Positions 21,101 to 42,400 of a DNA stretch of 64,000 nucleotides are shown in pieces. The position numbers and the translations under genes were made by a program. The notes beneath the pieces were generated by a model. That model was given only the letters and a program-made list of their open reading frames with translations, was not told where the DNA came from and made no database searches. This stretch comes from Branchiostoma floridae (lineage: Eukaryota; Chordata; Leptocardii; Amphioxiformes; Branchiostomatidae). The DNA lies in assembly GCF_000003815.2 (NCBI RefSeq), contig NC_049981.1, positions 19,610,559 through 19,674,558 of the forward strand. Direction: 5' to 3'. How positions within the stretch are numbered: position 1 is the first letter of the stretch; every line of letters starts with the position of its first letter.

Positions 21101-24100
21101 GCAATTCACAAGTTTATAGAGACAATGACAGTGTAAATGCAGGTTATTTCATGCAAAATAACCTGGGGAAAACATCATAAATTCAAAATTGGTGGAGAAG
21201 GGGTGCGTACTTTATATGAGTTTTTCCATTTTACCTTTCAGTCCCAAAGATCTGTCTAAGACTTGTCCAAAATCAGTGGTGCGTACTTTAATTGGGGTGC
21301 GTACTTTATTCGAGAATATACGGTACCTGTACCTGAACAATTATGGTCAATTATCTGTAAGTTATGCATGTCTTTCTAATGCTAAAATCTCATCTTTGTA
21401 TGAGAATTTACATATTTGAGTCTCAAGTCTAAGTTTTCTCAATCGCGAAGTGGTAGGTCAATAGAATTGCCATCTTTGAGACAGAATCTTTAGTCTTTAG
21501 TTTTTTTTAGGTACAGGTACAGGTACAAAGGATGACTGAAATGAACAGGTACTGGACCTGTACCATAACCATCTACAGTACAGGTACAGGGTTCATACAG
21601 ATCACCTGCATACTGACTGAGGTAGTGATTATGTCCATGGTATTTGCTTGACCTAATTAGTACTAGTAGTACCTGGTAACTGAAAAACAAATTAAACAGC
21701 AATGCAAATGAAAACTCCAATCCTTGATGGTAAACAATTGAAAAGGTCACCACCTTGTCTTGTCATCACAACACTATATTCTGTCTCATTTTGTTCTATT
21801 GACCTACAAACTAGCTAACTAGAACATTCATCCCTTCCGTATTTGGAAGTACACCTCCGCTGCTATTGTACTCCCGCTACCACAGTGTATCTGGTTTCCC
21901 TGAGCCGCACTTAACCGGTTTGAATGCAGGCCAGTCTATAGCAGGTTGTTACACATAAGCTCCGGGTGTGTGGAAGTATCCTGCAATTGTCAGCTGATTT
22001 TGTCTGCAGCATTTGGTGTTTCACCATGCTCCGTTCCCTCTTGAGGTTCAAACATTTGGCTCGGTGAGTGCAGCGTACTTGTTAACTGGTTCTGTTGATC
22101 TTACAGCAGCTGTTTACTTTCGAGTTTGCTAAGTTGGTGCTACATCTTACTGTTGTAACTGGGCTTTATACCTTACTTTTAAAACATCCAAAAGAACCAA
22201 AACTGCTTTAGACTGAGGGGTAATGAAACAAATGATGTGAAAATGAAAGGAAAACTTAATATCTGTTGCTACACTGACCTATTTAACGTTGCCTTTAAAG
22301 CTGAAGTCTATACATTTCTAGTTTACATTGCAGTGTAAGTAACACCGAGTGGCTGACGTAATGTGACAGTGAATACCTTAATAAGGGCTGTGTCCAGCTT
22401 TAAATATTTTCCCATCTCACTCATTGTTTGGGAGCCTATGTTGTTGAATCTATCATTTTTAAGCTCATGAAAATACATGTCAATCAAGTCTGATGTCTTG
22501 AAGTCCCAATTTCTTTGACACTCAGGGTAAAAGTTTTGTTTGTCCCAACAAGCAAATTTTCAAACAGTTTAACTAGAAGTAGAACAGAAGAACAGATTCT
22601 GGAGACAGCCTTGGGCTGAATCAGGTAAAAGTTAGCTGAGTGAAAAACATAGTTGTGATACTTTTTGAGATTCGCAATCTACTATTACTCCAAATGTTTC
22701 TTTATGATTTATGCACAGGTGACGTGTTTGACAGATGCCACTAGTTTCATCAAACTGTCAGTTGTGTGCAAAACTAGCTATTATTTTTTACATTGTCACC
22801 TAGGCATCTATAGCAATTACACGAATAATTGTTGGTTGTAGTTACTAGTAATCAATGTTCAACGAGGTTAGAGTCCAAGGGACCAAGGTAGTTAGTTGTC
22901 AACAATCACTCCTATGATCAGGTTACCTTAGAAGAAAGGGGAGAAGAGGGTATGCTGAGGGCATGGCCTGAATTGACCAATAGGAGCTTTTGTTGTGAAC
23001 CATGGTTTTGTTCAGTGGGTGCTTTAAACTAACCCCTGACCCTAACGGTCTCGCTTCCTTTCATTTCATTGGACAAAGGCTACAAGTCAGACCAACAGTT
23101 TGTTTTATGCACACCGACCGTCAGAAGTGATCTAAACTTCATGTGAGCAGCGAAAACTGGCAACAATTCATGATGACTTGGCATTACATTGTATCATAAT
23201 TTTAGTTTGAGACTTCAGAGAGAATTTTATTTACATGGTAAATGTTTGTAGCTTTGTATTTTAAAGGTTACTGGAAATGTTAAAGTCTAAATGTAAAAGG
23301 AAGTATGTTCATTCAGTTTATATACAAAATATTGCTATACAGTATAACTTAATACATTAAGTATCAGTATTTTATTTCCTTGGTTCTCTGACATTTAAAT
23401 GTGAAAGTCTAGCAAGCAGACATCATAGAAGCAGAGGGCTGGGAGGAAAACTTGAATGTGACTGTATTTGCCGCATAATTTGTTCCCCAGGATTTGTTTT
23501 AAGTATGGTTTTCAGCTAAGCATATTTTTTTATTAACCTGAGAACCCAACATATCGAATTGTTGTGGCCTAAGTTTGATTGATTTCCCATCTCAGTAATT
23601 TGTGTTTGGTAGCCTTATACTATAGTAATAGCCAAACACTTTTAGCCATACGTTCCTTCTTACATCCCATCCCACAGTGCAAGAAAGTGTGCAAGTCAGC
23701 AGAGCTAATGATGTCAAATGCAGTTTGACCTTACTTTACAGCCATCCCACCTGACATTTAAAAATGGCATTTAGATGAGGATCATAGATCATGTAGGGTT
23801 GGAAACTGCAGATAAAGGTTTGGTAGGTGCTGGAGGTGTATCAGGGTCTCCTCTAGGCAAGGCTAAGCCATTATGGGCCCCGACTGTGTAGGGCAATGGA
23901 TCAGATGATTACATATTGACCTCAGGGCCCAGCTGTACTTGGTGTGGTTATCGGGGTATGTCTGATTGAGGAGATGGGAGAGGGGGAAAGTTAGTGGTTT
24001 GTGGAATTAGGATGGACTGAAGTCTCCGTAGCAGGTTCCACTGGCAGTGTTTTAACAATTCACCTTTACCAAGATTCCAAGAACATTAAAATAAAGCATG

Positions 24101-25101
24101 GATCGGAGGAACTAAGGTGCTTGGTAAGGAAAGAAGGGTATGGTAGAGTGTTGTTTCTTTGTCTGTGTGTTTGTGGACAGCATAACTTGAGTTATGTGGA
24201 TGGATCCTTATAATGTTTATTGTGCTGGTAAGGATGGGGAAAACGAAAGCCAAATTCAACAATGGGCCTTCTGGTGGCTTTCTGTGGTTCTGCAGGAGAA
24301 CTTTAGAGCTTTGATATTTGGTGTTTTGGACATACTATGGTTGGGATTTTAATTGATAGATTATAAGGTCTTGGGACAGAGAATAAGTGGTGTAGAGGTG
24401 GGCCCCCTAGCAGATTTTTTCATCATTTACTTGTACTCTTTACTTATTCATTGCTACATGTATTATAGCATTCTAATATCTGTTATTACTGCTGAGTAGA
24501 ATCTCTGAAAAACCCCTGAACAAATAACTGCCAGTGGGTGGCAGCCATGAGACCACAGAAGCAATCAGAAAACAGTATGAAACCAGCAAAGAGATTTTTA
24601 AAAATAGCAATCTCAAAATATTGCCTATGGACCCCCTATCTAGTAGTAAATCCTAGTAATCTAGGCTGAGAACTAAGGGAGCCACAATCAACAAATTCAT
24701 GAAGTTTGCACATCCCGCTTTAATCATTAATGGTCTCTCTAGTCCCCTAATCCTGAAATGAATAGCCAGCAATTCCTGATCTTATTTTTGCTGCACATTA
24801 ACCTTTAGAGTGCACAAGTATTGGTAAATCAACAGCAGGTATAATACATGGATGTGTACAGTGCCATGTATTTTGAGTTACCAGTTGGATGCCAAGCACC
24901 AGATGAGCATATATTTTAAAAGGGCAGATAGTTGATGGATTAAATCTGTTATGCTAGAACCTGTGCAGTTGAAACAGTATAAGCAGCAAATCATGGGCAG
25001 CAATGTTTCTGTGCCATAACCGGGCATAAGGTAGCCAGGTCATCTAGCTGTCAGGATGCCAAATCTTGGAGGTATAGCCTTGGGCCTATTTGTTTGTTTG
25101 T

Positions 25102-25144
<43 letters not shown>

Positions 25145-28100
25145 CGTGTGTGTGCATGTGGTACTGTGTGTCTACTAGTAGATGTGTGTTCCTAAAGCAA
25201 TAACTTACAAATGGATAGGTGTTGGGGACACACAGAACACGGACAATTTTGGGTGCCCTGGTCACTTTTCTTGGTACTGCAGCAAAATTTCCGTTGTTGT
25301 ATCTTTTCTTTTTGACTTGGGTCTTGATTTCTTATTACATTTTGATAAGAGCCATACCTTTTGTACTTCAAAGAACCCAATTCACTTATTCATAAAAGCA
25401 AGGATATAAATTGATCCCTTTTGACAGCGCATTTTAAGGCCTGGCATTTTCAGTTGTGCTTTGTGTTCTCATCCACATGGTTTTACTGCATGCGCCCCTA
25501 GGATTTAATCACATTCAATCTTAGCTAATAGCCACTAGAAATCGGAACTCTTTCTGGTTAGATTGAAATAGTGCAAATCCCATTTCTATGTCAGAGTCAG
25601 CTTACTGAAATGAAGAAGAGCCCATTTAGGTCAGGACCAGATAGTTTTGTTTCATCCAAATGGTGGAGAACCAATTTCTAGGGTATCAAAGTATAAGGCA
25701 ATAAATAGTGGTGCGTACCGGTTCGCCGAACCGGACTTGGACTTGCTATAACTTTCGGTTCAAGTCCGGTTAAAACCGGAACGTCAAAAACCGGTTTTCT
25801 GGAAAACCGGAAATCTCTTTCTTGTTGTATACTAGTATCATCTAAAAACAACGCTAGATGCCTATGTAACTTTTTAATCGCAGCCAACAGGCCAGAAAAT
25901 AACGTATTTCTGCGTATTGTCCTACCGCCATAAGCGGGCCAAGCACATGGTCGCGCCACGGGAACCTTCTTTCAAAATCCGGCAACGCGGCAAAAATGAC
26001 AGGTTGACTTTAGCAATATTACTCATGAAAATAAAGCATGTGGATTTGTTTATCTCCTGGTATGGGTTTTAAGTCCCATATCTTCTGAAAATGAAGAAAA
26101 TTTCCAAGATAAACAAGCTAAAACAAATCTCCGGCGCAGCGACATTTGCCGCTTGCCGGGATACTTCACTGAAACCATGGGTGAGTAGCTTGTTAAAAAG
26201 AAACACTGGCACGTTCTATTTTAGAAAAAGTTTTAAGTTTATGAACTTATTTTATACCTCCTGCATTTATCTTTGTAACGAATAAATTTAAAATTAATTT
26301 TACGGTTGAATGTAGAAGATAAAAACACCGCACGCATCATTTCTAGCCGCATTACAGTAGGCTATCCCATTGACCCCTATGACCTCGCAAGCGCCATTTT
26401 GAAATTTCGGCCGTCAAAAAACAAGCGGAAAATGTCGAATTTTGCCGTGATTTCCCGATAGTTTTTATTAAAAATCAATGTTTCTACACCTTTGAAAATG
26501 ATGCAGTCGTCTTAGGTAATATTTTGATAGCATGTGGCCCAGCGGCGGGTGCCGGATACGCAAAATGGGTCGCCTAGAGCAAGTCGCTTTATGCTTGTGT
26601 CTAACGTTAATTGGGAAAATTTAGCGACCGTAAAAAAACCGGACTTATAAGTCCGGACCTGAACCGGAATCTTTGGACTCGAGTCCGGACCTGAACCGGA
26701 ATGTGAGCTTCGGTACGCACCACTAGCAATAAACCTTGAAGTAGGTGGATTCAGGTCCTTAGAATCAGGTCCTTAAAATCCTTTGTATGTTGAAAACCCA
26801 GTTTCAGATAAAAGTTGAATTTACATTGGACAACCACTGAATTTCCCTAAAAAGCCTGTACTAGTTTGAAGGGTTTCTGGCTGGAGACAGATCAGAAACT
26901 ACTGGATACGTTAAAGCTATCTTTTTATAAGAACAAGGTTGTGCAGAAGAACATGGTGTAATCACAACATAAGGATAACAATGTAATCCTGGAGCAAGTA
27001 TGGATAAACCTGCTATAATTTATAAATGAACTGTTGCATGTGTGGCATCTGGCATGTGTACTAACCCCACCTCCTCCACCCAGACTGCAGACCAAGCCCA
27101 GCAATGGAGCTGCTAGTGTCTATCACATGGCAAACACTGAGGCTCTGCCAGAGTACAAGTAAGCACCGTTGCACTTCACTTAATCCTCCTTGGAATCCTA
27201 AGGAATCAACCTAGCATCTTGGAGGGAATGTTAAAGTTTAAACTCACAAGTATGATCACTAACTGTGCTAAGCTAGCAAGGCCAGTAATTGTAGATATAA
27301 TGTAAGACTTTTCTCCATTCTCCTCTTTTTATCTGGCTTCAAAAGAATCTATCTATACTTTGTTAGATGTTGAAATAGGAAGGGTATAAGTTTATCACAT
27401 TATGGTGTATCAAATTTCTAGTGTATTTCCAACCTATAGAGTGTTCATGTATAGATTGTTCTTAATGTTGATTGTCAATGATAGATTCATTTATCAATTG
27501 ATCCAGACACCAGGCCAAGATCATTGATGGGGTTGCCATGGCGAAGGAGATCCGTGAGGAGGTGAGGATGGAAGTGGACCAGTGGGTCGCTAAGGGACAC
27601 CGCGCTCCACACCTCAGTGTTGTCCTCGTAGGAGACAACCCTGCAAGCGCATCATATGTAAAGGCCAAAACAAAAGCTGCCAAAGGAGCTGGTAAGTCAA
27701 ATGTAATAATTTTCACTTCATGTCAGTATTCCTCTACTTCAAAAGCTTGGGAAGGTTGAGCCTATAGTATAATGGTACTAGTGCAATAGATTGGTAAAGA
27801 AAAACTGTCATATTTACTTGCCCGTATTACAAGTCAAGGTAAGGAAGTTAGATAGAGATATAATCTCCTATATAACCTCCTTGGTCAATGGTAAAACGGT
27901 AATCAAGCAGTCTTCCTGAGCTTAAGTGAAATATGATGCTTTTTCAACTAGCTAATGGTTGTGCAATATGGCTTCACCATGACTTGCATTTTGCCAACTA
28001 CACTGGGTCACCCCCATTCTCCTCGATAAGTATGTTGGGTTCTTTTACCCGCATCAGTTAGATGCTTGAGGTAACGCATAGAGCTCCCCCAGCTTTATGT

Positions 28101-31100
28101 CCCCCGTCGAGAGGACGATGCAGCGCTTTTCCAGTCATATTCAGACCAGGGTCACTGGCTCCTCAGAAATTTTTAAGTATAAAGCTTTATCATTGATGCA
28201 TATGCAGAAAGACAGAACATCTGACTGTCCTCTTCCCTTTTGTAGGTATCACCAGTGAAACCATCCTCAAACCAAGCTCTATAACAGAAGAGGAGCTGTT
28301 GGACCTGGTGGACAAGCTGAACAAAGACGACAGGGTGGATGGCCTCCTAGTCCAGCTACCGGTTCCTGATCACATGACAGAGAGAACCATCTGTAATGCG
28401 GTCTGTAGTTTCTATAATGTTATTAGTTAATCAGTATTTTGTGATGTTATCAGTGCATTTGCCACCATATTGTTGGCTATTTTTGCTCTTCAGTGATTCT
28501 TCAGTAATAAACACTCTTAAGTGTCCAAACAGAAGAATGTTCAAACTTTCTCCAAAAGACTGACTTGTCTGTTGGCACTACAGGTGGCACCTGAGAAAGA
28601 TGTGGACGGCTTCAATGTGGTGAATGTGGGGAGGTTTTGTCTGGACGAGCCTGCCTTCCTCCCAGCTACACCATATGGGGTCATGGAAATGATCAGGAGA
28701 ACAGGTAAAATTCACTTCATCTGAGTCATGTTATGATTTTCATCATGATATAGATAAAGAGATGGGCGACACAACTTTTTGTTAGATATTTAAACCCACA
28801 AATCCAGTCAAAAATTGATTTTGTAGCCAAATTGGCCACATGCCCTTTTGAAATCTTATAACAGGCAACACTGCATGGTCTGTGTGAGACAGTCTCATCT
28901 GTCTAGTCAAAGCTATCAGGGAGCCTTTATGTCAATGGGAGCATGATACATGTATGTACCTTTGTTTTGTCTCAGAAATGACATCGTCCCATTTGTTTCC
29001 CATTATGTTGTCCTTAAGTGTCATGGTGTTTAGTTGAAGGGTACATAGAATAGTCATCCATTCAATGACACCTTCTCCAGGGTAAATCAAACCTCAATCA
29101 TTGACCATCCAACTGTGAAGGAACTGTGATTTGAATTACTGAGTCCCTCTTTTGTGGACCAATCACAGATGTGGTCCTGTGATTTTGTTTGGCGGTCATC
29201 TCAATGTCAAAGAAGGATTGTAGGAGGCTTCAGGGCATGAATTAACAAGGTAGTTCCTGGGAATGCAATCAGAAAATTAGCAGTACTGCCAGAAGTGCTG
29301 ATTATATGTATGTGATTGAATTGAAAGGTTGCCTTGAATCATAATGTTTGCCTCAAGAAGCTGTTTTTTTTAAAGTTGGGATAGCTAAACTTCGAAGTTT
29401 AAAAACAGAATACCATTGGTTAAAACAGAAATTTGCGACAAAATAATGGTAATAGACAGAAATAGCAGTATCATTTCTGTTAGGTTGCCATGGTATACTG
29501 TTTGTTATGTTAAGAATGATATAAGTCCTCTCAGAAATCAGATTTTTCATCTTAATTAGAAATATTGTTGACAGATGATGTTGACTTAATGTTTCAATAC
29601 AAACCAAACAAACTTAATAACCAAGCTTGATCCTTAACTTTAAGTCACTGCAGCATCAACAGATCGTATCATATTTATCTTCACACAAACTGAGCAGGTT
29701 GCTTGGCCTGATAGCACAAGATATACGAGTCAAGGGACTGCCTTATCTTGTTTTTTCATCACTAAAGCTTATAACAAATTCTATGAGCTGCTACATCATC
29801 AGTTAATCACCCTTGGTCTTGTACAGGCATTGGAGGTTTCAGGAATGGTAAAGAGCTGATAAGGAGAAACAGGAAGCTGGTGTTCACAGTCTGTTTGTAG
29901 AAGCACTGTGGGGAATAGTACACATCACATTATTCTTTGTCAATTTTCCAGTTGGTTGGAGGTGATGTGAGGCATGATCCTGGTTTTTCACCCATGAAAA
30001 GAATATGCCATGTTGGGATTTACAATGAGAATAGAAAATAATAATTCTCCATTCATTACCTTTATTAAATGAAAGGCATGCAACTGTACCTGCCATCTCT
30101 TGTCTTGATGCATAATAAATGGATTTATCAAAGAATGAATGAAAGATTGATTGGTTTATTTGAAATACCTTTAACAGTCACATACTTACATAGCCTGGGT
30201 GCTATCCAATTTACTACCAGCACTCCTATACTCCCTTAAAAAATCGAGAGAGAAGTGTAGAAGCCCTGTTAGTAAATAGAAAGACAAGTCACAAGGTAAA
30301 TTACATACTTTTGTAAGTTACTTTAATCACTCAACTTTTACAGACTGAGCTGCCCTGGGCAGATGAAGAGTAAGTACATGTACATAGAAAACACAATATT
30401 GTGCTGTTAATGGTCTTTCTTTGTTTACTGCAAATTTAAAGTAACCAGCCTTATTTGTTTTGAACTTTGCAGGCATAGAAACCTTTGGGAAGAATGCTGT
30501 TGTGTGTGGCAGGTCGAAAAACGTGGGGATGCCCCTGGCCATGCTGCTACACACTGACAAGGAACATCATGAGATCTGTGGTAGGGAACTTTTCCCTTCA
30601 ACTTGTAGACTTACTTTCCAGTGTCAGATGTGCACACATGCTGGTACTTTTAGATAGATGTCAATATGTTTTTCACTACAAATTTGCATCAAGATGGAGC
30701 TTAATTACTTAAAGGTAATACCCTTCAGTGTGTGACTATGTTAATCATCATCTTGTTATACTTGCAGTGAAATATTCATTATTCATTTAAGAAATCTCAG
30801 TTACCTGTTTAATGCACATATTCTAGTAATTGAACAGACTGACACTTTGTACAATGTATACTACCCTCTGGCCAGTTTTGTCCAAAATCATGCTCCAAAC
30901 TTACAGCCCATACATAGAGCTACTTGTTACATCAGTACATTACAGTTACATCATGCACAGTTTTAGCAATACACCTTAAAACAGTCTTTAGAGACAAGCA
31001 GTGATGTTATATGTTTCTCTAAAACCTTGCATTGCTTACGGATTTGCTAGAACCTAGAGTGAACTTAAAATGCCATTTAAATGTGAAATATGTTTCAATT

Positions 31101-34100
31101 ACCACAGTATTAAAATGCCATTTTTGCTCTAGCGATGTGTTTGGATAATTAGACATTGAGAGATGGTGGGATTTCCAGGAAACATTATTTCTAATCCTTG
31201 AAGAAAAATGGAATATTCAAAAGGTATTCACCAGTATCACTTACTGCGATAATACCATGTCTTTGTAGACTTTGATTTCAGTGTAAGGAGTTAGAACCAC
31301 TATCTTGACACACAACATGGTGGTAGAAGACAGAAAAGGTACTTTTTAGCAACATAAAGTCTTATTTTACACACTAATGGATTGTAACGGGAGGTGCCCC
31401 AACACGGTACGCTTTTTCTTGCGCTCAAACTCATGGCGCTCCATCGCTAGTTGCCTGAGAGTGGTCAAAGTTTGATGACTGAATTTTTGTCTTTCGCCGC
31501 GCTTCCGCGGCGAAAGGCAATCAGACTGATATTAGATTGCTGTCCGTCTGTCCGTCCGTCCGTCCGGGTCGACCATGCCATACCGTGCTAGCGAGATATT
31601 CTACCCTGCAGATTCGATGGTATTGCCAAAGGCCATGCAAGTACTAGTATGTATGACATACGTATCGGCCTGCCATGAATGTGCAGCTTGGTTTATACAT
31701 GGCTTATTAGCAGGAATAAAGGACCTGCAATGTGCCCTGCACAACGTATTTGTAGACGTCTATTCAACCAAAGACCTCCGCGATTCAACTTGTACTATAT
31801 CTGCAAGGTAAAGAGAAAACATTTAAGGTATCTTTGCGTACGTGTATTCGATGGATATCAGTCACACTTCGTTTCTCTTAGTGAACGCGGCGCGTACGAA
31901 AGGGTCCAAACGTTGTGGTGTCTTTCCTCCCAGTAGGTAGGGGTAGGTCGGACCTTATGATTAGGCGGTCAAGAAACACTGGGCAAGTTCCAAGGACGTT
32001 ATCGTCCTTGGCAAGTTCAGAGGATAACAACGTTACAATGCCAGCAGTTGAAGGAAATCTTCATCTCACAATCTGTCACTACCACACGGCAATATTGCAA
32101 TGTAATTGTGGAATATAGCGTTTTTCGTGTGCGTAGAAATGAAAAAGAAATTTTCTTTGACACGGGTGGGCGCAAAGCATCATGGGGCAGCAAAGAAAGT
32201 AGATAGCGGGGAACCCCCTACAGCTGTAGGATCAACCAATCAGAGGTGCGTATTGCGATCACGTGCACGTCTTAGCTAGCTGCAAGCGTAAAAAATCCTG
32301 GAATTGGGCGGGCAGTCTTCAATCCCAGTGTCAAAGATATTTCCACGGCTTGCGGAGCTAGCGGCAATGCGAAAAAAATCCTCGGCTTGCGCTGAGGAAC
32401 TGGGCGGGCAGTCTTCAGTCCCAATGCCGTCGACTGGACAGCGGCAAGCACGTCGCTAGCTCGTGAAACACACAATGACGTAATTGCTGTTTGTTTTACT
32501 AGGGGTGAAACCGTCATTTCACCATGTTTCACTCTTTTGTCACGTAGGTGCAATATTTGCTTTCACCCTTCCATATTTACATGGGAACAATGCGAATCCG
32601 GGTGACACATTTTCACCGTGTTTCACCAACATTCACCCATTATGTGCCATTTTCACCGTACGCCGTGTCGTAATGATCAAGGAGGTTAAAAAGAGATGGT
32701 AGTTGCAATGGAAAGAGATCCTAAAATCTTCCTAAACTTCAACCTACACAAGAACAGCATCGGCTGTCCCGACATAGTCAGGAGAAAAGCAAGGTAAGGG
32801 GTGGACACAATAAACTATACAGCAAAATATGACTCTTAGCAAGGAGGTTAACCTCGTTGCTTTTAGTCCTTCTTTAACCTCCTTGCTTTTAGTCTTCAGA
32901 TGCGCCATATGCATGACGGGTAAAATGTTGATTTGTACCTGTTTTTACAGATTTCATGTTTTTAAGAAACTGACAAATGTCGTAAGTGTTGTCCAAAATT
33001 TAACATTATTTGGCGGATATCCACAGTATTTGTTGTAGCATTCTAAAGCTATGAAAACTTCATAACTAAATAAAATGATAACATGCTCTTGGCCACAAAA
33101 GAAGTGACCAACAGTAATTATATTGTCTGGCTATGTTACATTTGCTATTTGACCTGGAGTCCAAATTTCTGGAGAATCATTATTTGTTTGATTGTTTGGT
33201 TGTTTGGAGGTTTGGAGGTTTGGTTGTTGAACCTCATATTTAAAACAAGGAGAGTTTTCGGTTTTTACAGTGAGTAGGTTAGTTCCAGTGCCACAAAGCC
33301 TGTGTCTACATCGAACATGTGTCTAGTTGTAACATATTTTGATTACCCCACAACTCGCTCATTTTTGCATCCCCTTTCCTTACAGAGAGAGCATTAAGCA
33401 GGTAGCTAAGCTGTTGGTGCAGATCCATGCCTTGGACCACGCCCTGCAGGTCGCCAGAGAACACAGCCTCAAGGATCTCAAACAGATGGTTGTCGGGCGG
33501 TAGCACATGGTTACCACACAGGATACTATACATCCTTCAGAAACTTGGGAACATGGGCTTTCAAAAAACTTACCACCTGTAGCTTTTACACTGGTCAGCT
33601 TGTGGTCATCTCATATGGTAAAGGATATCTAGTCCATTGTATAGTAAGTCCTTTCATGAACTAGTGATATTGAGTAGCACAAACTTAGATGGGGGAGGGG
33701 AGGACCAGGTCGGATCAAAGAAATCTCCAATTGTTTCCATCTCATGTGAACTGGGTTGACAGACATGATGTAAGATTTTGGTGTAGAAATGGCAAGNNNN
33801 NNNNNNNNNNNNNNNNNNNNNNNNNNNNNNNNNNNNNNNNNNNNNNNNNNNNNNNNNNNNNNNNNNNNNNNNNNNNNNNNNNNNNNNNNNNNNNNNNNNN
33901 NNNNNNNNNNNNNNNNNNNNNNNNNNNNNNNNNNNNNNNNNNNNNNNNNNNNNNNNNNNNNNNNNNNNNNNNNNNNNNNNNNNNNNNNNNNNNNNNNNNN
34001 NNNNNNNNNNNNNNNNNNNNNNNNNNNNNNNNNNNNNNNNNNNNNNNNNNNNNNNNNNNNNNNNNNNNNNNNNNNNNNNNNNNNNNNNNNNNNNNNNNNN

Positions 34101-37100
34101 NNNNNNNNNNNNNNNNNNNNNNNNNNNNNNNNNNNNNNNNNNNNNNNNNNNNNNNNNNNNNNNNNNNNNNNNNNNNNNNNNNNNNNNNNNNNNNNNNNNN
34201 NNNNNAATCAGGGGTGCGTACTTTAATTGGGGTGCGTACTTTATTCGAGAATATACGGTAAGTCCTTTCATGAACTAGTGATATTGAGTAGCACAAACTT
34301 AGATGGGGGAGGGGAGGACCAGGTCGGATCAAAGAAATCTCCAATTGTTTCCATCTCATGTGAACTGGGTTGACAGACATGATGTAAGATTTTGGTGTAG
34401 AAATGGCCATTGTAACAAACCTATAATTACCGGTATGTAATTTTAGTACGCCTTATTCTTATAAAGGATTCATACCTTCTGTAACATCTGGAGTCTGTAC
34501 ATGTTCATAGTGTGTACTGGTGCAGTCTCTCTGCTAGCAGGTAGTGAAGAAATACAGTCAGAATATGATGTCCTTTCCACTTTTACATTGTACAACTCAA
34601 GTGATGGCTATCATGAGGAAATATCTGCCTTTGATCAACATTCATTGAACGGAAAAAAAGCATCCATCCTGAATCTTAGCACATTCTAATCGTGTTTGGT
34701 GAAGACTGGTGACAGTGTATAGATTGACTTGAGTAGGGAACTGTGAGCATTGTACATACAGGAAAGATGTGAAAGCTATATACAATGTATCTACTGAGTT
34801 TTGTGGAGGTCTACTGTCAAAAGAGTCAAATAAAACTTGATTTTTTTTTTTTGCATACAAAAATCGTTACCGACTGAATTTGTCAGTTATTCTATTTATG
34901 AATCTCCTAAAGGCACAGCATCAAGTTCTCTGACGAGGTCTTTTTTAACCTCCTTGGTGTTATTAAACAGCCGTCGGGGTCTCGCTGGCGGCGTCTCGCG
35001 TCCTCCCCAGCCATGTGGAAATTTTGGAAGGTCGGTGACCGGAGAGAGCTCGCCCGGAACGTCGCATGTATAGACAACTACTTTTGTATAGTTGCATATG
35101 TTGGAACAAATAGCAATTTATTACAGGCCTGCGATAACAAAACCTACTAGTATATTGTTTTCGTTGGCGTCCATGGGCGCCACCANNNNNNNNNNNNNNN
35201 NNNNNNNNNNNNNNNNNNNNNNNNNNNNNNNNNNNNNNNNNNNNNNNNNNNNNNNNNNNNNNNNNNNNNNNNNNNNNNNNNNNNNTGTCGCGATTTTGAT
35301 GTGTTATTACGATGTTCAATTTTAGGACCATATATCCGTGCACAAAATAAAGCGCTTATATACCGACGCTTTCGATCAGTCCTCTGATCCTTCTCAAGTT
35401 GAAATGACCCAGAGCCTAAGTCACGATGTGGAGAATTACCTCTATGAAATCCAGAATTGTGCAGAGATCTGACGTGGGGTGGGTGGCGGTTGCATGTGGA
35501 AAATTGCTTACTACTCGAAATTTCAAGGGATCTTCGTGGAAGAAACTTCAACAAAAGTGTATCCCTCTTTGATATATGTAAAATACACTGACTAATATTT
35601 TATCTAATTGATTTCAAATGAGAAGATTCCAAGCTACCCCGATGGAGTGAGTTTGTGGCCCATAACCACTGACGTAATGAATCAAAATCTCAATAATTTT
35701 GCTTTCCGAAAAGAAATGAAACGTTCCTTTCAACATACCACAATGAAACTGCATTTGCATTTTGAAACTCATTAAGTACAATTTTATTAACAGACACAGA
35801 CCTGACAAAAATCAGTAAACTGGATGCTGCACCAATTAGAAAATGAACACATTATATCAGCAGGCATCTATACGTTTAAGGGCTTACTGGTGCAATAAAT
35901 TACGAGAACAAATTGAATAAACTTTGTACGTCAACGTACAGAACAAGTGTTGTTCACATGAACATAGGACTTTATAACACCAGTGGTAATCAGATACTCC
36001 ACTAATTCCTTAGTAGCGAAATGGACAATTGTTTTGAGTATCGCCCCTTCAAAAGTTTGCACAGACCATCAAGTCCGGACCTGCACCTGATCCTTTGTAC
36101 CTGTACCTGAATTTTCTGTTCCAGTACCCACCCCTAGTTCATACCATTGAAACTGTTCTGAAACTCATCTGGTAAAAGTTTTACCTACACAATATAAGTA
36201 AGCGAAAGACCAGCTTTTTTTAAAAGCTCTTGTTTACACATAGATTTGAACAACATACTTGAATAAGAAATGCATTCATGTGGTTCATGAACCTTTCGCG
36301 CTGCGTGTTACGGCAAACACTGTGAGACAATTTCGTGTATGTGACCTTCCAATTTTGTGCTACGCTGGACAGTGTGCCTAACTCGGTACGCTTTTTTACA
36401 TTTTGCTCTCTTCAGAAGTAAGTGGTAAATTTAAGTACACAGAAAAAAATCAATAGTATGATATTTTAGATTACTTTTAACAGTAAAATCGTGACTGTAT
36501 GTACTTTCTGTCTCATATGAGGAAGGCTGTACCTAGAACAATCCAGCTGATGTTTTTACGGGCAATGGGCTGAATGCACTGATTGTGAATGCCCGACTAA
36601 AAAAACCATTACGAAAAAACGACACCACCAACATCAACAAAACTCTGTGTGATTATATGAAAACATCATATACATCTCTCTATCAAGTCTTATTTTCATA
36701 GACAGCACGATTCATTTGTTACAGTCAAATAAATCTTTGGAGCGTTCTCTTGTCTGCCACATTCACGGCCACACTCCCTTGGGAGTACAATGGTGGCAAT
36801 GTTTATGTCGCTTCCTTTTGGTTGCTTTTCTACTCAACAAACATTTGAAGACCCATATCCATAGTGTTTTATGGAGCTTTATTTATGTGTATCATGGCAG
36901 TCGTGTGACTGCTTGGACGAGTTTGTATAGTTAGCGACACGAGCCGCCAATACGCAGAGGCCGGTGACCGCAGTGATTCAGCACTGTCGAAATTACTGTT
37001 AGAATTCTGTTTTTAAAAAACATGAAGTAAATATGTTAAAGTATACTTGGAATGCAAATTAAAGCTGTGTGCATGGACTTGGTTCATTTACCTTTGTAAT

Positions 37101-39906
37101 CAGCATAGTCAGTGGCAACAAACACGGTGTACTTATGGATAATAAGATCAGAAAAAAAATCCGTACCGTCTTAGGACGGGAACCGTCTTAGGGCGGTCCC
37201 CGTTAGTACACATTTATAGGAATACTAGCCATTCATATAAACTCCCTATTAGAAGAACCAAATAAACTAAACAGACTGGTACAGCCGATAGCAACTTTGA
37301 TGCATGAGTTAGAATATCCCATGTGATGCATAGAATACATTTCCCTTCCCTAGGGAAACAGTTCATTTTTTGCCACTTTTCCTCTATCTTGGCTTTCCTG
37401 TCCATCCAATTCATAGGTAGGAATCGGTAAAAACTTGGTGGGATATAGATGTTATTTGAAACAGCCTGCCTCCATGTATGGCTGTTGTGTTTCAGTCACT
37501 TTGACAAAACATCACATTCTCTCTTGATGTCTAGTTTTGAGATAACACCATGGGAGATGAATTCCTTATTTAAAAGTTACGTTCATAAGCATGGCTTCTT
37601 TGTGCATCAGTCATTATGTTTCTTCCTGTATTTCACCACATGCTCTCCTAGATAAACCACAGAGCAGCATTCCTCCTCTGGTGAATGTGTAAGGAAAAGT
37701 TGGAGGAAACACTGACAGGTTGGGAGGAAACACTGGCCTTACATTTCCTTGCTTTGTTTCCTGTTAGAGAGATCAAGCAGCCATCCCAGCATTCCTTGCA
37801 ACACACATTGTACTACACACATCCCTGATGGCTGACTGTGGGAAACAAGCATATAGCCTTGTCATATTGCCTTTGACTGTGTAGCAAGTGTACAATTTGA
37901 TCACTTAATTTTCTTTTCTTGAATCTGCTTTCCTGTGCAGCTGATGCCACCACGACGATCTGCCACCGGTACACCCCCGGGGACCAGCTGGAAGTGTTCA
38001 CCAAGACGGCGGACATCATCATCGTGGCGGTGGGCCAGCCCAACCTCATCACTGCAGACATGGTGAAGGAAGGGGTGGTGGTGATAGACGTGGGCATCAA
38101 CAGGGTCATGGACCCCGCCACTGGCAAAATGAAGCTTGTTGGAGATGTGGACTTTGAAGGTCTGTAAATTTGCTTGTGTTTGCTATCAAGATCTCCTAGG
38201 GTGATTTAACATGTTTTCTCCTATGTTCTTCAACATATCGTTTTTGTGTTTGATCGTACATCAACATGTCTTTTTTTCCATTGATTGTTTATATTATTCA
38301 TCTTCTATCTTTGTATATGCTGTATTTTACTTAATGTAATCGTATCATATTTTTGTATTATTGATGGAATAGCTTCTTATACATATTTTTCTTTTTGCCC
38401 GATCCTCAATAAACAAAGCAATAACCTAATAATGTTCCATCATTTTTATCCTCACGTTAATCGCTAGAACATAATTACCGGATTACAGGATACCATGAAG
38501 CTAGCTACCTTTTACCTTATTTCTTCCACTCTTGCTCAGTTTTTTGGACCAATGTTATGCTTTGAATTACGACTGTAACCAATATGTAACATGAAGATAT
38601 AAGAAATATATGCAGTGTATGCTGTTGTTGTGTAACAACTCACCTGTCATACAGGTGTGTCCCAAAAAGCAAGCTACATCACCCCAGTGCCGGGAGGTGT
38701 TGGCCCCATGACAGTGGCCATGCTGATGAAGAACACCATGCAGGCAGCTAAGGGCCAGTATAGCTGGGACTGATTCAGTACTACTGACAACATGCAGATA
38801 ATACAAAGTAATCTGTTAGTCTACATGTGTAGCTGTAACATGCTTCCTGTAACATGTTTCCTGTTTTTTCGTCCTTTATTTTGCTACAAACAGCATATTG
38901 ATCACAGAAAGTAATCTATCACCCAGCTACCCACAGCTCCTGTAATCGTGCTTTTAAACAAAGCCTTTTCTTTTGTTTCCTTGCAAACAACAGAGCACAT
39001 GTATTTTTCAATTTGCTTTTGAAGTGTGCATTAATTCCTTTTCAGACTTTTATTTCCAGCTGTACACTACCCTCCCAAACCCACTGGTCCTACCCTCTTG
39101 CCTTAGTTCTGCTGCACAGATAATGCAGAATATGTACTCCTAGTGAGACAACCATAGCAAAGGAAAGAACCTTCATAGCTCTGCTCTTCCCATCCCGAAT
39201 ACCACCATTTTTAGCAAAATCTTTCCACACTATGCATAACACAGGTCACTTTGAATTTGTTAAGACAGTAGGTAAATGAAACATAACTGTAAAAGTTATG
39301 TAAGGAACAAATATACCATGATGTATCTTTCCCAAATGCCATATAAAACTCTATAAACTCATGAACAAGTCGAAACAAAAAGGTTAATTCTGATAAGTGT
39401 TTAAAAGTAAGCATTTTTTTTCAAACTTGAAGTGACCTGTATTGCTATACTTGTATGCTTTTCTTTTACTTGATTTAAGTTTTACCACAGCTTTGCTTTT
39501 TGTTTCAAGAAGGTCCTGCTTTCCTCCATTGTCTTTTTGTTGGCTTCTTTTCCATCACAGGACCCCACCTGCAGTGTTGATATCAATATCTTCTTGTATC
39601 TGGTTTGTCCCTGCTGTTTTTTTTGCAGTGGTTTGTTCCGTTGTTACTCTTAACGTCGGATCAAGAGTTTAAAATTATATGACAGTATATTGAATGCTTA
39701 ATAAAATGTATTAACATCTGTATAATGATTCTGTCCTTCCAACAGGAGTGTCCACGAAGGCTAGCTACATCACACCGGTGCCAGGCGGGGTGGGGCCCAT
39801 GACTGTTGCCATGTTGATGAAGAATACTCTGGCTGCTGCCAAGAAAGACCCCAGCTATGGCCTGTCCATGCACCCAAAGAAAACACTAGGCCAGGAAGTC
39901 TCATAA
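15072..39906 (+). CDS. MTHFD2: MTHFD2-type mitochondrial methylene-THF dehydrogenase/cyclohydrolase
   Basis: Exons 15072-15169 (or 22026-22063), 27084-27158, 27507-27691, 28246-28400, 28584-28704, 30473-30580, 37941-38159, then 38655-38773 or 39746-39906. Product is 359 or 373 residues (human MTHFD2: 350). It oxidises 5,10-methylene-THF and hydrolyses the methenyl product to 10-formyl-THF in mitochondria. Catalytic Tyr108 and Lys112 (SYVKAK) are present, with signatures [11 protein letters not shown] and [10 protein letters not shown]. Arg225 (GRSKNVGMP), Asp249 and Arg257 (CHRYTP) match human Arg201, Asp225 and Arg233, the phosphate/magnesium residues that allow NAD use, which argues for MTHFD2/2L rather than MTHFD1. 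The N-terminus is Arg-rich, as expected of a presequence. Vertebrate MTHFD2 and MTHFD2L may both descend from this gene. Confidence 0.94.
20258..20358. repeat. Short foldback repeat
   Basis: Arms of about 37 bp (TTTACCTGGGTACCAT... against ...ATGGTACCCTGTAAA) flank a loop rich in A. MITE-like; no target duplication identified. Confidence 0.5.
20753..21323. mobile_element. TA-flanked MITE with 27-bp perfect inverted ends
   Basis: 571 bp. Both ends begin CCGTATATTCTCGAATAAAG and continue GTACGCAC, perfectly inverted, with TA on each outer side (20751-20752, 21324-21325). The interior repeats GGGGTGCGTACTTTA. A TA target suggests Tc1/mariner-type mobilisation. The right end of another copy follows the gap at 34206-34258. 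It is embedded in DNA rich in GGTACAGGTAC (20694-21610), related to the hAT-like family at 4291. Confidence 0.8.
22026..22063 (+). CDS. MTHFD2: Candidate MTHFD2 alternative first exon 1b
   Basis: ATG in TTTCACCATGC, then CTCCGTTCCCTC..., encoding [12 protein letters not shown] plus two bases before a strong donor CG|GTGAGT. The peptide is a compact Arg/Leu import-signal type. Its phase matches that of exon 1a exactly, so splicing to 27084 gives a junction Arg and an in-frame protein. No homology or transcript evidence is available here. Confidence 0.4.
25091..25160. repeat. (TG)n microsatellite
   Basis: Almost pure TG/GTTT repeat over about 70 bp, in MTHFD2 intron 1. Confidence 0.95.
25706..26725. 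mobile_element. hAT-like element, 1020 bp, exact 8-bp duplication
   Basis: Inverted ends TAGTGGTGCGTACCG on both sides, flanked by GCAATAAA at 25698-25705 and 26726-26733. Subterminal regions carry CCGGTTTT and GGACCTGAACCGGAA repeats like the element at 4291. Inside, ATG at 26091 opens a 24-residue-plus frame that reaches a strong donor CCATGG|GTGAGT at about 26182, perhaps a leftover first exon of the autonomous parent. No transposase core is visible. Confidence 0.85.
27084..27158 (+). CDS. MTHFD2: MTHFD2 exon 2
   Basis: Acceptor CCACCCAG, donor TACAA|GTAAGC. Encodes [20 protein letters not shown], then LPEY, a linker between presequence and enzyme. Phases match both neighbours; the linker itself is poorly conserved in the family. 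Confidence 0.8.
27507..27691 (+). CDS. MTHFD2: MTHFD2 exon 3, catalytic Tyr/Lys
   Basis: Acceptor GATCCAG, donor GCTG|GTAAGT. Encodes [20 protein letters not shown], then [20 protein letters not shown]. Tyr108 and Lys112 correspond to the catalytic pair of the family. Confidence 0.95.
28246..28400 (+). CDS. MTHFD2: MTHFD2 exon 4, family signature 1
   Basis: Acceptor CTTTTGTAG. Encodes [20 protein letters not shown], then [10 protein letters not shown], the first THF dehydrogenase/cyclohydrolase signature. The donor GCG|GTCTGT is non-consensus after the GT but is required by the frame. Confidence 0.95.
28584..28704 (+). CDS. MTHFD2: MTHFD2 exon 5
   Basis: Acceptor CACTACAG, donor ACAG|GTAAAA. 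Encodes [20 protein letters not shown], then [14 protein letters not shown], matching KDVDGF and PATPWGV of vertebrate MTHFD2. Confidence 0.95.
30473..30580 (+). CDS. MTHFD2: MTHFD2 exon 6, nucleotide/phosphate site
   Basis: Acceptor CTTTGCAG, donor TGTG|GTAGGG. Encodes [20 protein letters not shown], then [10 protein letters not shown]. Arg225 in GRSKNVG matches the human phosphate-binding Arg201. Confidence 0.95.
31380..32690. other. CpG-rich block of unknown nature
   Basis: Markedly richer in CG than the intron around it. Includes a TCCGTCCG run, the hairpin CTTTCGCCGCG/CGCGGCGAAAG near 31490-31520, and two tandem copies of a unit containing GGGCGGGCAGTCTTC (about 32275-32335, 32355-32430). 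ACACGG...TACG at the left and CGTACGCCGTGT at the right may be inverted ends, suggesting a transposon. No homologous ORF recognised. Confidence 0.4.
33386..33503 (+). pseudogene. Orphan terminal-exon-like frame inside MTHFD2 intron 6
   Basis: A strong acceptor (CCCCTTTCCTTACAG) is followed by a frame with many G/C third positions, reading [20 protein letters not shown], then [18 protein letters not shown] and TAG. The helical, charged composition looks like real protein, but I do not recognise the family. The opposite strand is also open and ends at a GTAAGG donor, so the strand is not certain. It may be a gene fragment copied into the intron or an exon of a nested gene. Confidence 0.3.
33797..34205. 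other. Assembly gap (409 N)
   Basis: Run of N. Long open frames across it are artefacts. Confidence 1.
34206..34258. mobile_element. Right end of TA-flanked MITE, copy 2
   Basis: Ends with the same inverted terminus (CTTTATTCGAGAATATACGG then TA) as the element at 20753-21323; the rest is in the gap. Confidence 0.85.
35186..35285. other. Assembly gap (100 N)
   Basis: Run of exactly 100 N, the usual placeholder for unknown length. Confidence 1.
35330..35420 (-). repeat. Possible retroelement terminus
   Basis: Minus strand contains GATCAGAGGACTGATCGAAA, then GCGTCGGTATATAAGCGC, resembling end sequences of Penelope-like and related retroelements. The assignment is weak; the adjacent gap hides the rest. 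Confidence 0.25.
36060..36137. mobile_element. Half copy of hAT-like family
   Basis: Read on the minus strand it starts TAGGGGTGGGTACTGGAAC and continues with CAGGTACAGG repeats, matching the left end of the element at 4291-4724. The other end was not found. Confidence 0.6.
37941..38159 (+). CDS. MTHFD2: MTHFD2 exon 7, NAD-domain
   Basis: Acceptor TCCTGTGCAG. Encodes [40 protein letters not shown], and [20 protein letters not shown], ending LVGDVDFE. Asp249 and Arg257 (HRYTP) support the NAD-dependent mitochondrial type. The donor is again GTCTGT (GAAG|GTCTGT) and faces two competing last exons. Confidence 0.95.
38655..38773 (+). CDS. MTHFD2: MTHFD2 alternative last exon 8a
   Basis: Acceptor GTCATACAG. 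Encodes [38 protein letters not shown] and TGA. Carries the second family signature PGGVGPMT and its own stop, with no donor inside. An AATAAA at 39700 could serve its 3' end. Splices in the same phase as exon 8b. Confidence 0.88.
39700..39705 (+). promoter_or_regulatory. Candidate poly(A) signal for exon 8a form
   Basis: AATAAA 927 bp past the exon 8a stop and about 40 bp before exon 8b; use of this site would exclude exon 8b. Confidence 0.4.
39746..39906 (+). CDS. MTHFD2: MTHFD2 alternative last exon 8b
   Basis: Acceptor CTTCCAACAG with a better pyrimidine tract than 8a. Encodes [20 protein letters not shown], then [18 protein letters not shown], a longer basic tail and TAA. Over the first 32 full codons it differs from 8a by 3 amino-acid and 16 silent changes, so both copies look maintained by selection. 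The tail is 14 residues longer than in 8a. Confidence 0.92.
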
Positions 39907-42400
39907 ACCATATAGCACTCACTGGTCACTTGCAACTTAGGAATATGTCCTAAATTTGAAGAAAAAAAATCTAGCAACCTCTTGTTGAGGGATATGTAGC
40001 AATGGAAAGAATCACTTTTACATATCTTCATCTCTGTCACACCCTTCATAGTTATGGATATACCTGACTTACTGGATTTCATGTGACTAGTATTTGGAGG
40101 CATTAGCATTGAAATGCAGGGCAAGTATACACACACTCAAGATTAGTATCAAGAACCATGGGAGAGACAGAGCTACCTGCAGCACTGATTACTTAAGATT
40201 CAGGAAGTACTTACTTTTTCCAAGCCTTACATTACAATCTTACTAAATGTACTATAAAGGTTGATCTTTTTCTATGAAAAATTCATCCTTTAGTAGTTTC
40301 ACATAAAAGAGCCCTACGGTATTTCTCTTTTGACATTCTCATTGAACCCTGATGCAAAGTTTCATTCACGTAGAAGTGACCTTAGAATATATACTGGTAT
40401 ATAGTAGAATTAAGCTGGTATACTAGAATTAAGCTGTAGTCAGTATGCATACTGAACATTCTATACATTGAACCTTCTCCATATTACCTAAGCCTGTGAG
40501 AACCAAGATTGGTCCCAAAAGGCTAAATCAGCAGGTAAAGGCTAATTGACTAGCTCTTCAAGTATTAAACTTGAATAGACTTGTGTACAGACACAAGTAT
40601 TACATGGCTAAGAAACCTATTTTCTGCAACTTAAATATCCTAGAATAATGAAAATTATGTACAAAAAATAATATAATGATTGGTCATGCTCTGCTCTTTA
40701 GTGAAGAAAATCATTGAAAATCTAGTGTCATTTCCTGAATCTATGGTCAAGGAAAAGAAGGAAAATTTTGAGAATGCTTGCTTAGTTGTCTTAGGCACAG
40801 CAACTTATTTTAGAGCAGCAACTCACAACTGTAACAATTTCAAAGCTCTGCTAACATCCAAACAACTACACTTACCTGCATGCATCGCCGCTGTTTATTT
40901 ATCGCACCATAAAGAACCATTTTAAGTACTAATATATGTACATGTATTTATAGGTTGTGGAAGAAGATATATTTTCTTTAAGAATAGCTAACTTAAAGTA
41001 GGTTTTAGCAGTGTGTCAAGTTGCTCAAAGCTTTAGAGATAATGAAAGTACTTGCACCCAACATTGAGTCATGAAACTGTGTTGTAAAGTGGTTGCTAGC
41101 TGGAAACTGCTGTGAGATAACATTAGTGTCAAACTGCTGTGAGAGACCATCATGGCTATATTGGGATAATGGTAATGGAAAATTACTGGTTCCGTTGGAA
41201 TTGAGATTTAATCCTGCCAGAGGAGACGCCATCTGCTGTCTGATGACAATTGTCTGACAGTTTACTCGCATGTGCCACATAGAAATATTTAAAGAATCAG
41301 AAATTTGAGTGGAAAAATTTACGTTGTTATGTAAAAATTAAGTTATACTAAGAGGTAGGTTTTAGCCTTAGTTTTTTAGTACTGTAACAGTAACTTTAAT
41401 TAGATGTTGTGCCAATCAATTAGAGCGATTCTTCTCTATAGAAATTTACAGCAGTCCAAGCTTTAATGTGTCACAATAATTCTCTTTTGGTGTAATGACA
41501 AATATTTCTAGTTTTACAACAGATCTCACAATCAAGGATAGAATAATTGATATATAGAAATCTGTATGGGGGAAGTTTACTAGCTCAGCTGATGCTAAAA
41601 ACTGGTACCAGGAAAAACAAGAATTCTGTTGTACAAAAAAAAAGAGGAAAAAGCTTTGTCGAATATTCTAAGATACATTGTCCTGGGACATATACTACAA
41701 TGTATTGTACATACATGTAGTAGGAAGTTATATCAACTTTATATTGGAATGTCATACTTGTACTTAAGTCAGTATTGTCTTTTTAAATACTAGTATACTG
41801 GTAGCTTTTAGTAACAAGGAATGGTTGTTGTGTTCTTGTCAGTTTTTTAATGTGCATCTTGCCTTTTAGGTATTTTTTATGGCTGCTGGTGTTTAAAAAT
41901 GTAAGGCGCCATTCTTTGCCAAAGGTACTTAAACTGTGTTAATAGATTATCAATATCTTGCCTGTTGTTTTGTCAAGTAATGTTGGAACAATGTACATTT
42001 TGGTTCCTTTCAAGTTGAACATTTGTTTATCTATTTTATAAACTTTTTGTTTTCATTATATCTTACTGTTTCCCATGTATGGTTATCCTATTCTTCTCAT
42101 ATTCTTTGCATAAAATCGTTCCAGCCATGTGGCTTTTTTCTGATTTAAAACAGAGAGGCCAGTATGGCATATAAGGTAACAAAACTTATCAAATGTACTG
42201 TTTTATGTTAAACTCCTTTTAACCTTTTTTAATGATATGCTGTTATTGGTAGTCCCAAGTCCTTTCAATACTGTTAGTGTGCCAAAGAACTTGTACAATG
42301 TATTTTCAAAGCTGCCAAATGTCACAAATTATTTTGCATTTAAATTTGCATTTCCTGTGTAACAAGTCATCATGATTTATCTTGTGTAATAAATTGCTGT
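39907..42400 (+). other. MTHFD2: Probable MTHFD2 3' UTR
   Basis: AT-rich, no coding sequence recognised. AATAAA occurs at 42388-42393, with further AATAAA at 43723 and 43981. True 3' end is not determinable from sequence alone. Confidence 0.4.

Follow-up and report, generated by a model that had tools for sequence, protein, structure and literature searches.

Does an MTHFD2-type gene that carries two last exons provide for two enzymes, or is one of the exons a relic? The question is raised by a 64,000-nucleotide stretch of the amphioxus Branchiostoma floridae genome (assembly GCF_000003815.2, contig NC_049981.1, positions 19,610,559 to 19,674,558 of the forward strand), hereafter the window, whose own coordinates are used below. 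In this gene the last shared exon is followed by two adjoining homologous exons, 8a and 8b, each with an acceptor and a stop of its own and both entered in the same phase. We consider it very likely, judging from the DNA, that the terminal exon was duplicated in tandem long ago in a single-copy MTHFD2 and that both copies have been kept as mutually exclusive last exons, and we strongly infer that two enzymes are made from the one gene. MTHFD2 is a much-studied cancer drug target, and we are aware of no well-defined function of the tail that follows its last conserved helix. If our reading is true, a natural pair of enzymes, identical but for three aligned residues and the tail, could be used to probe the function of that tail and to ask whether, in one-carbon metabolism, the choice of splice site can stand in for gene duplication and vice versa. 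The exon pair reveals no new kind of mechanism.

Two terminal exons joined in the same phase

Exon 6 ends in phase 1 with ...GAC TTT GAA G/gtctgt at 38159, and this phase is continued both by the 8a acceptor, tacag/GTGTGTCC at 38655, and by the 8b acceptor, caacag/GAGTGTCC at 39746, either join yielding Gly-Val-Ser. The exon boundaries and same-phase joins proposed in an earlier sequence-only reading of this DNA were found to be correct to the base, and each exon does end in a separate stop (TGA in 8a, TAA in 8b). Its numbering needs correction, in that the exon it called exon 7 is actually the sixth coding exon (37941-38159), so that 8a and 8b, whose labels we retain, are alternative seventh coding exons. 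Before its terminal codon, neither exon shows a stop, a frameshift or the loss of its AG. The spliced reading frames are open from a single ATG to their own stops and encode 314 amino acids in the 8a form and 328 in the 8b form. The two forms have the putative presequence, the catalytic core and the PGGVGPMTV loop in common. Three of the 33 aligned residues, located in the last fold element, are different, and so are the tails, which read GQYSWD in 8a and are longer in 8b.

Divergence and constraint between 8a and 8b

Of the 33 shared codons (the split Gly codon included), 13 are the same in both exons, 17 carry silent differences and 3 encode another residue; the 16 silent and 3 replacement differences previously counted by hand over 32 full codons are the same tally without the split codon. 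The exons differ at 24 nucleotides in this part, of which 18 are third codon positions. A comparison of replacement divergence (dN) with silent divergence (dS), which the sequence-only reading had proposed as a check, found silent change to be saturated and dN to lie between 0.070 and 0.080. The NG86 method gave a dN of 0.080 and a dS of 3.2 over the 32 full codons, with dS becoming undefined (saturated) when one codon fewer was used, and maximum likelihood over the same codons gave a dN of 0.070 and a dS of 24.5, again saturation. When 24 changes were placed randomly on 8a in 20,000 trials, at least 8 codons were replaced each time (mean 15.2); three or fewer were never obtained (0/20,000). 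This pairwise comparison points to purifying selection on both copies, as had been suspected. The flanking introns of 8a and 8b showed no clear similarity in three 20-nt bins per side, with 6, 8 and 8 of 20 positions identical upstream of the shared part and 8, 7 and 3 of 20 after it. Saturated silent change with three replacements in 33 codons argues that the duplication is old and that neither copy has drifted freely.

It might be supposed that only one terminal exon is in use and that the other fell out of use so recently that its frame is still intact. The acceptor of 8a would fit this, as its score is the lowest of the seven computed. However, a retired copy is hard to reconcile with the saturated silent divergence, the 3 replacements in 33 codons and the lack of a stop, frameshift or AG loss in either exon. 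In addition, the two exons are about equally close to human MTHFD2, which is the top match for both when exon 6 is included in the query (159.8 bits with 8b and 159.3 bits with 8a). We therefore regard the retirement of one copy as unlikely and continue with two kept last exons.

One gene rather than two

The genome searched comprised 513,431,437 bases in 431 contigs, in which the window is C3:19610559-19674558. The exon 6 peptide and the PF02882 domain served as genome-wide queries, and these searches score the best candidates only, so that the copy counts are lower bounds. The exon 6 peptide had one full match, and the best other candidate, on C1, was 39% identical. At E <= 0.001, PF02882 was found in at least six pieces, namely exon 6, 8a, 8b and three pieces on C1 (L003 / L020-L022). 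The latter make up the other PF02882 locus found, C1:11619643-11621992, which from its sequence is probably MTHFD1. The piece that corresponds to 8a and 8b occurs once at that locus.

These results bear on the idea that one of the exons is the last remnant of a tandemly duplicated second MTHFD2 gene, or else an assembly duplicate, for which one could cite the double occurrence of one exon within 1.1 kb and the assembly gaps elsewhere in the window. No second copy of exons 2-6 was found in the window, and exon 6 has no second close copy among the best candidates in the genome. Since exon 6 is without such a copy and the domain was found only here and on C1, neither terminal exon looks like a second-gene remnant or an assembly duplicate; both have a single upstream gene. 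Moreover, 20 of the 33 codons differ between them, and there is no gap between 35286 and 63146. The sequence-only reading had already thought an assembly duplicate unlikely, and the copy searches, the codon differences and the gap map lead us to reject both versions of this explanation as highly improbable. Because exon 6, 8a and 8b lie on this one gap-free stretch, their order is independent of scaffolding. Exons 1-5 precede the gaps, so that the linkage between exons 5 and 6 depends on scaffolding.

The gene lies on the + strand with six coding exons common to both forms (22026-38159; Table 1). AG acceptors are present in exons 2-6 and GT donors in exons 1-6, with compatible phases. The N-terminus encoded by exon 1 looks, by eye, like a mitochondrial presequence, and both forms end right after the dehydrogenase/cyclohydrolase domain. 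PF00763 and PF02882 were matched by both the 8a and the 8b form in queries without exons 1-2, with scores of 68.7 and 213.7 bits for the 8a form. In the PDB ranking, mitochondrial entries (MTHFD2) came first, followed by 7qei and then by FolD and cytoplasmic C1-synthase entries; 7qei, whose name ends in "cyclohydrolase 2", we take to be MTHFD2L. By its domains and its best match to MTHFD2/MTHFD2L over MTHFD1, the gene is assigned to the MTHFD2 type. Scans of the whole window with Rfam (gathering threshold) and for tRNA genes gave no matches.

Table 1. Coding exons of the MTHFD2-type gene and candidate polyadenylation (poly(A)) signals, in window coordinates.
Feature	Position	Strand	Remarks
Coding exon 1	22026..22063	+	ATG; donor gtgagt; phase-2 join to exon 2
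Coding exon 2	27507..27691	+	
Coding exon 3	28246..28400	+	Pfam PF00763
Coding exon 4	28584..28704	+	
Coding exon 5	30473..30580	+	Pfam PF02882
Coding exon 6	37941..38159	+	219 nt; final exon common to both forms; phase-1 end
Terminal exon 8a, coding part	38655..38773	+	stop TGA ending at 38773
AATAAA	39700..39705	+	candidate poly(A) signal for 8a transcripts; 40 nt upstream of the 8b acceptor
Terminal exon 8b, coding part	39746..39906	+	stop TAA ending at 39906
ATTAAA	40564..40569	+	candidate poly(A) signal for 8b transcripts

How the choice may be made

Inhibitors of human MTHFD2 contact the backbone of Gly310 and a lipophilic cavity that includes Val308 and Pro309 (PMC10134251). The terminal exon encodes this Val308-Pro309-Gly310 stretch of the folate site, placed on VPGG by alignment, so an mRNA without a copy of the exon should yield no working enzyme and each mRNA needs one copy. 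As each exon has a stop, the choice is exclusive at the protein level. After the proposed ancient tandem duplication of the terminal coding exon, the 8a route would join exon 6 to 8a and cleave the transcript near 39700, and the 8b route would skip 8a and splice exon 6 to 8b. The products would be two mitochondrial methylenetetrahydrofolate dehydrogenase/cyclohydrolases. Because they differ mostly in the tail, altered catalysis is not implied, and the tails may instead change the stability, the partners or the regulation of the enzyme.

The AATAAA at 39700, which had been reported to lie between the exons, is present and is the only AATAAA there, although weaker variants also occur. After 8b, the ATTAAA at 40564 is the first AATAAA or ATTAAA; rarer variants stand at 40253, 40302 and 40386, and the first AATAAA is at 42388. 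Splice sites were given a rough score against a consensus built on textbook frequencies, in which the acceptor of 8a reached 1.1, that of 8b 5.6 and those of exons 2 and 6 1.8 each. The shared donor AAG/gtctgt scored 1.5 and is not the weakest, since that of exon 3, also gtctgt, scored -1.6. The branch-point match TTAAC lies 32 nt upstream of 8b, and for 8a no yTnAy match was found in the stretch searched. It is possible that the weaker 8a acceptor competes with the stronger 8b acceptor, and that the 8a poly(A) signal, by overlapping the branch-point region of 8b, couples splicing to polyadenylation in the choice. As the AATAAA stands just before the branch-point match, cleavage there would remove the 8b acceptor.

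Mutually exclusive terminal exons occur in a fly gene, and competing RNA structures have been cited for PGRP-LC (PMC9013439). Among the 21 inverted-repeat pairs in 37940-40400, none was seen by eye to connect the intron upstream of 8a with sites immediately ahead of both exons in the manner of PGRP-LC, and one 12-nt pair runs between this intron and 8a.

A further possibility is that the choice mainly swaps 3' untranslated regions (3' UTRs), with effects on stability, location or microRNA control, and that the tails are incidental. Cleavage directed by the AATAAA at 39700 would give the 8a mRNA a 3' UTR of about 0.9 kb distinct from that of 8b, and duplicated terminal exons elsewhere accompany 3' UTR choice (PMC9013439). 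We found no point that speaks against it, as the conserved coding parts show merely that both ends preserve the enzyme. This explanation is somewhat doubtful in our view, and it is compatible with two kept last exons.

Several points weigh against our proposal of two kept, mutually exclusive last exons. The constraint was measured on one pair; it indicates that neither copy went unconstrained for long, but one copy may have lost its use recently. The single-copy status of the gene comes from a search limited to the best candidates and is a lower bound. The position of the AATAAA is weak evidence, given that 65 of 2,019 YAG-ended 50-nt windows (3.2%) contain one. Finally, with the acceptors of exons 2 and 6 also scoring low, the weakness of the 8a acceptor alone marks no regulation.

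Comparison with known systems

In human genes, 77 of 236 substitution events of tandem-duplicated exons swap C-terminal regions, an architecture like that of 8a and 8b in which one homologous C-terminal region is exchanged for another (PMC9741552). Duplicated regions that hold ligand-binding residues are more conserved there than those without, as in ACOX1 (PMC9741552). The nearest functional analogue is KRAS 4A/4B, where homologous last coding exons are mutually exclusive; the homologous beginning of each completes the globular domain, few residues being replaced (four in human), and each has a different tail (PMC9882654). However, the KRAS tails are membrane-targeting signals and 4A came from the paralogue NRAS (PMC9882654), whereas the tails of 8a and 8b carry no recognised signal and no MTHFD2 paralogue was found here among the best candidates.

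The duplicated exon pairs of KHK, PKM and OGDH are internal. In contrast, the MTHFD2 pair is terminal, so that 3' processing would take part in the choice. What these genes would share with MTHFD2 is an enzyme tuned by the choice between duplicated exons, as in KHK and PKM (PMC9741552) and in OGDH 4a/4b (PMC7969005).

Vertebrates also possess this mitochondrial enzyme in two versions, MTHFD2 and MTHFD2L, but they are encoded by two genes, whereas here one gene has two last exons; there is no sign that 8a or 8b matches either paralogue. Vertebrate MTHFD2 is found in embryonic cells and tumours, and MTHFD2L is thought to be adult (PMC4602236). The exon choice in amphioxus might parallel this division between proliferating or embryonic and adult states through a collision of splicing and polyadenylation, in which the use of one mRNA end would remove the other, the 8a poly(A) signal lying beside the 8b branch-point region. 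We think this parallel improbable.

The sequence-only reading knew of no such arrangement in vertebrate MTHFD2. The main texts of two human surveys agree with this and do not prove it: "mthfd" has no occurrence in the main text of the duplicated-exon survey (PMC9741552), and its single occurrence in that of PMC5740500 is MTHFD1L, among the genes with mutually exclusive exon clusters. None of the literature matches listed, which consisted of titles and abstract openings and left most subscription journals outside, described an MTHFD2 gene with two last exons. Duplicated terminal exons are of an established kind, and the arrangement looks new for MTHFD2.

A Helentron-like repeat in intron 5

Intron 5 contains a repeat of 4,752 bases (31484-36235, two assembly gaps included) in sense orientation with respect to MTHFD2, which carries a captured exon. 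A genome search with the peptide of this exon gave 31 hits, comprising the window, a likely parent and 29 other copies (L025-L033, L035-L054). Outside the exon, these copies differ from the window by 0.05-0.79% substitutions, indels excluded. The repeat has sharp borders, seen in nine copies at the left and nine at the right (ten loci), with, by eye, unrelated flanks and terminal T runs; in the alignment, L026 does not extend to the right border, nor L030 to the left one. A strong hairpin stands at the left end (z -4.8) and a weak one at the right end (z -1.9; 6 of 200 shuffles were as good), and GTCTTTCGC recurs inverted near the right end. We take these end features to be Helentron/Helitron2-like. 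We read the element as a recently amplified Helentron-like repeat, with no recognised gene of its own.

The captured exon matches the C-terminus of human PAXBP1 (8ro2_PX, E 1.3e-6, within a 47-amino-acid query), and the captured piece is best identified as the last exon of PAXBP1 with its adjoining intron and 3' region. The likely parent gene is at L034 (C9:12509000-12518900), where the hit at C9:12515633 is about 3 kb from a GCFC-domain hit; at E <= 0.001 that domain was found once at L034 and four times at C2:17.24 Mb. The parent and captured exons agree at 110 of 117 bases, with six silent and one replacement codon, and the adjoining stretches are 81-90% identical. We rejected the reading of 30344-30370 and 33387-33503 as two PAXBP1 exons, as the human match spans only query residues 8-47 and the piece belongs to the repeat. 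In the window, the captured exon has an intact acceptor and stop and is accompanied by an AATAAA at 34829. It is possible that the element in MTHFD2 intron 5 is a ready-made poly(A) trap, for which it is a candidate.

The 117-base captured exon is identical to that of the window in 22 of the 29 copies; six others have one substitution and one has a 3-base insertion. Selection on this exon is unsupported: there were 6 substitutions in 3,393 bases, compared to 474 in 113,602 in the rest of the element, but all six are replacements, one of them common to two copies. The lower rate is itself suspect because the copies were found with the peptide, which favours intact ones.

Both N gaps of the repeat region (33797-34205 and 35186-35285) lie inside the element. 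The first gap is absent in all eight copies compared, and about 150 bp flanking it are present twice in the window and once in the copies; this gap thus looks like an assembly error. In place of the second gap, all eight copies have 36 bp. The copy on C10 (L033) is interrupted at 6392-7099 by a sequence 88-91% identical to window positions 20751-21326, a different dispersed repeat.

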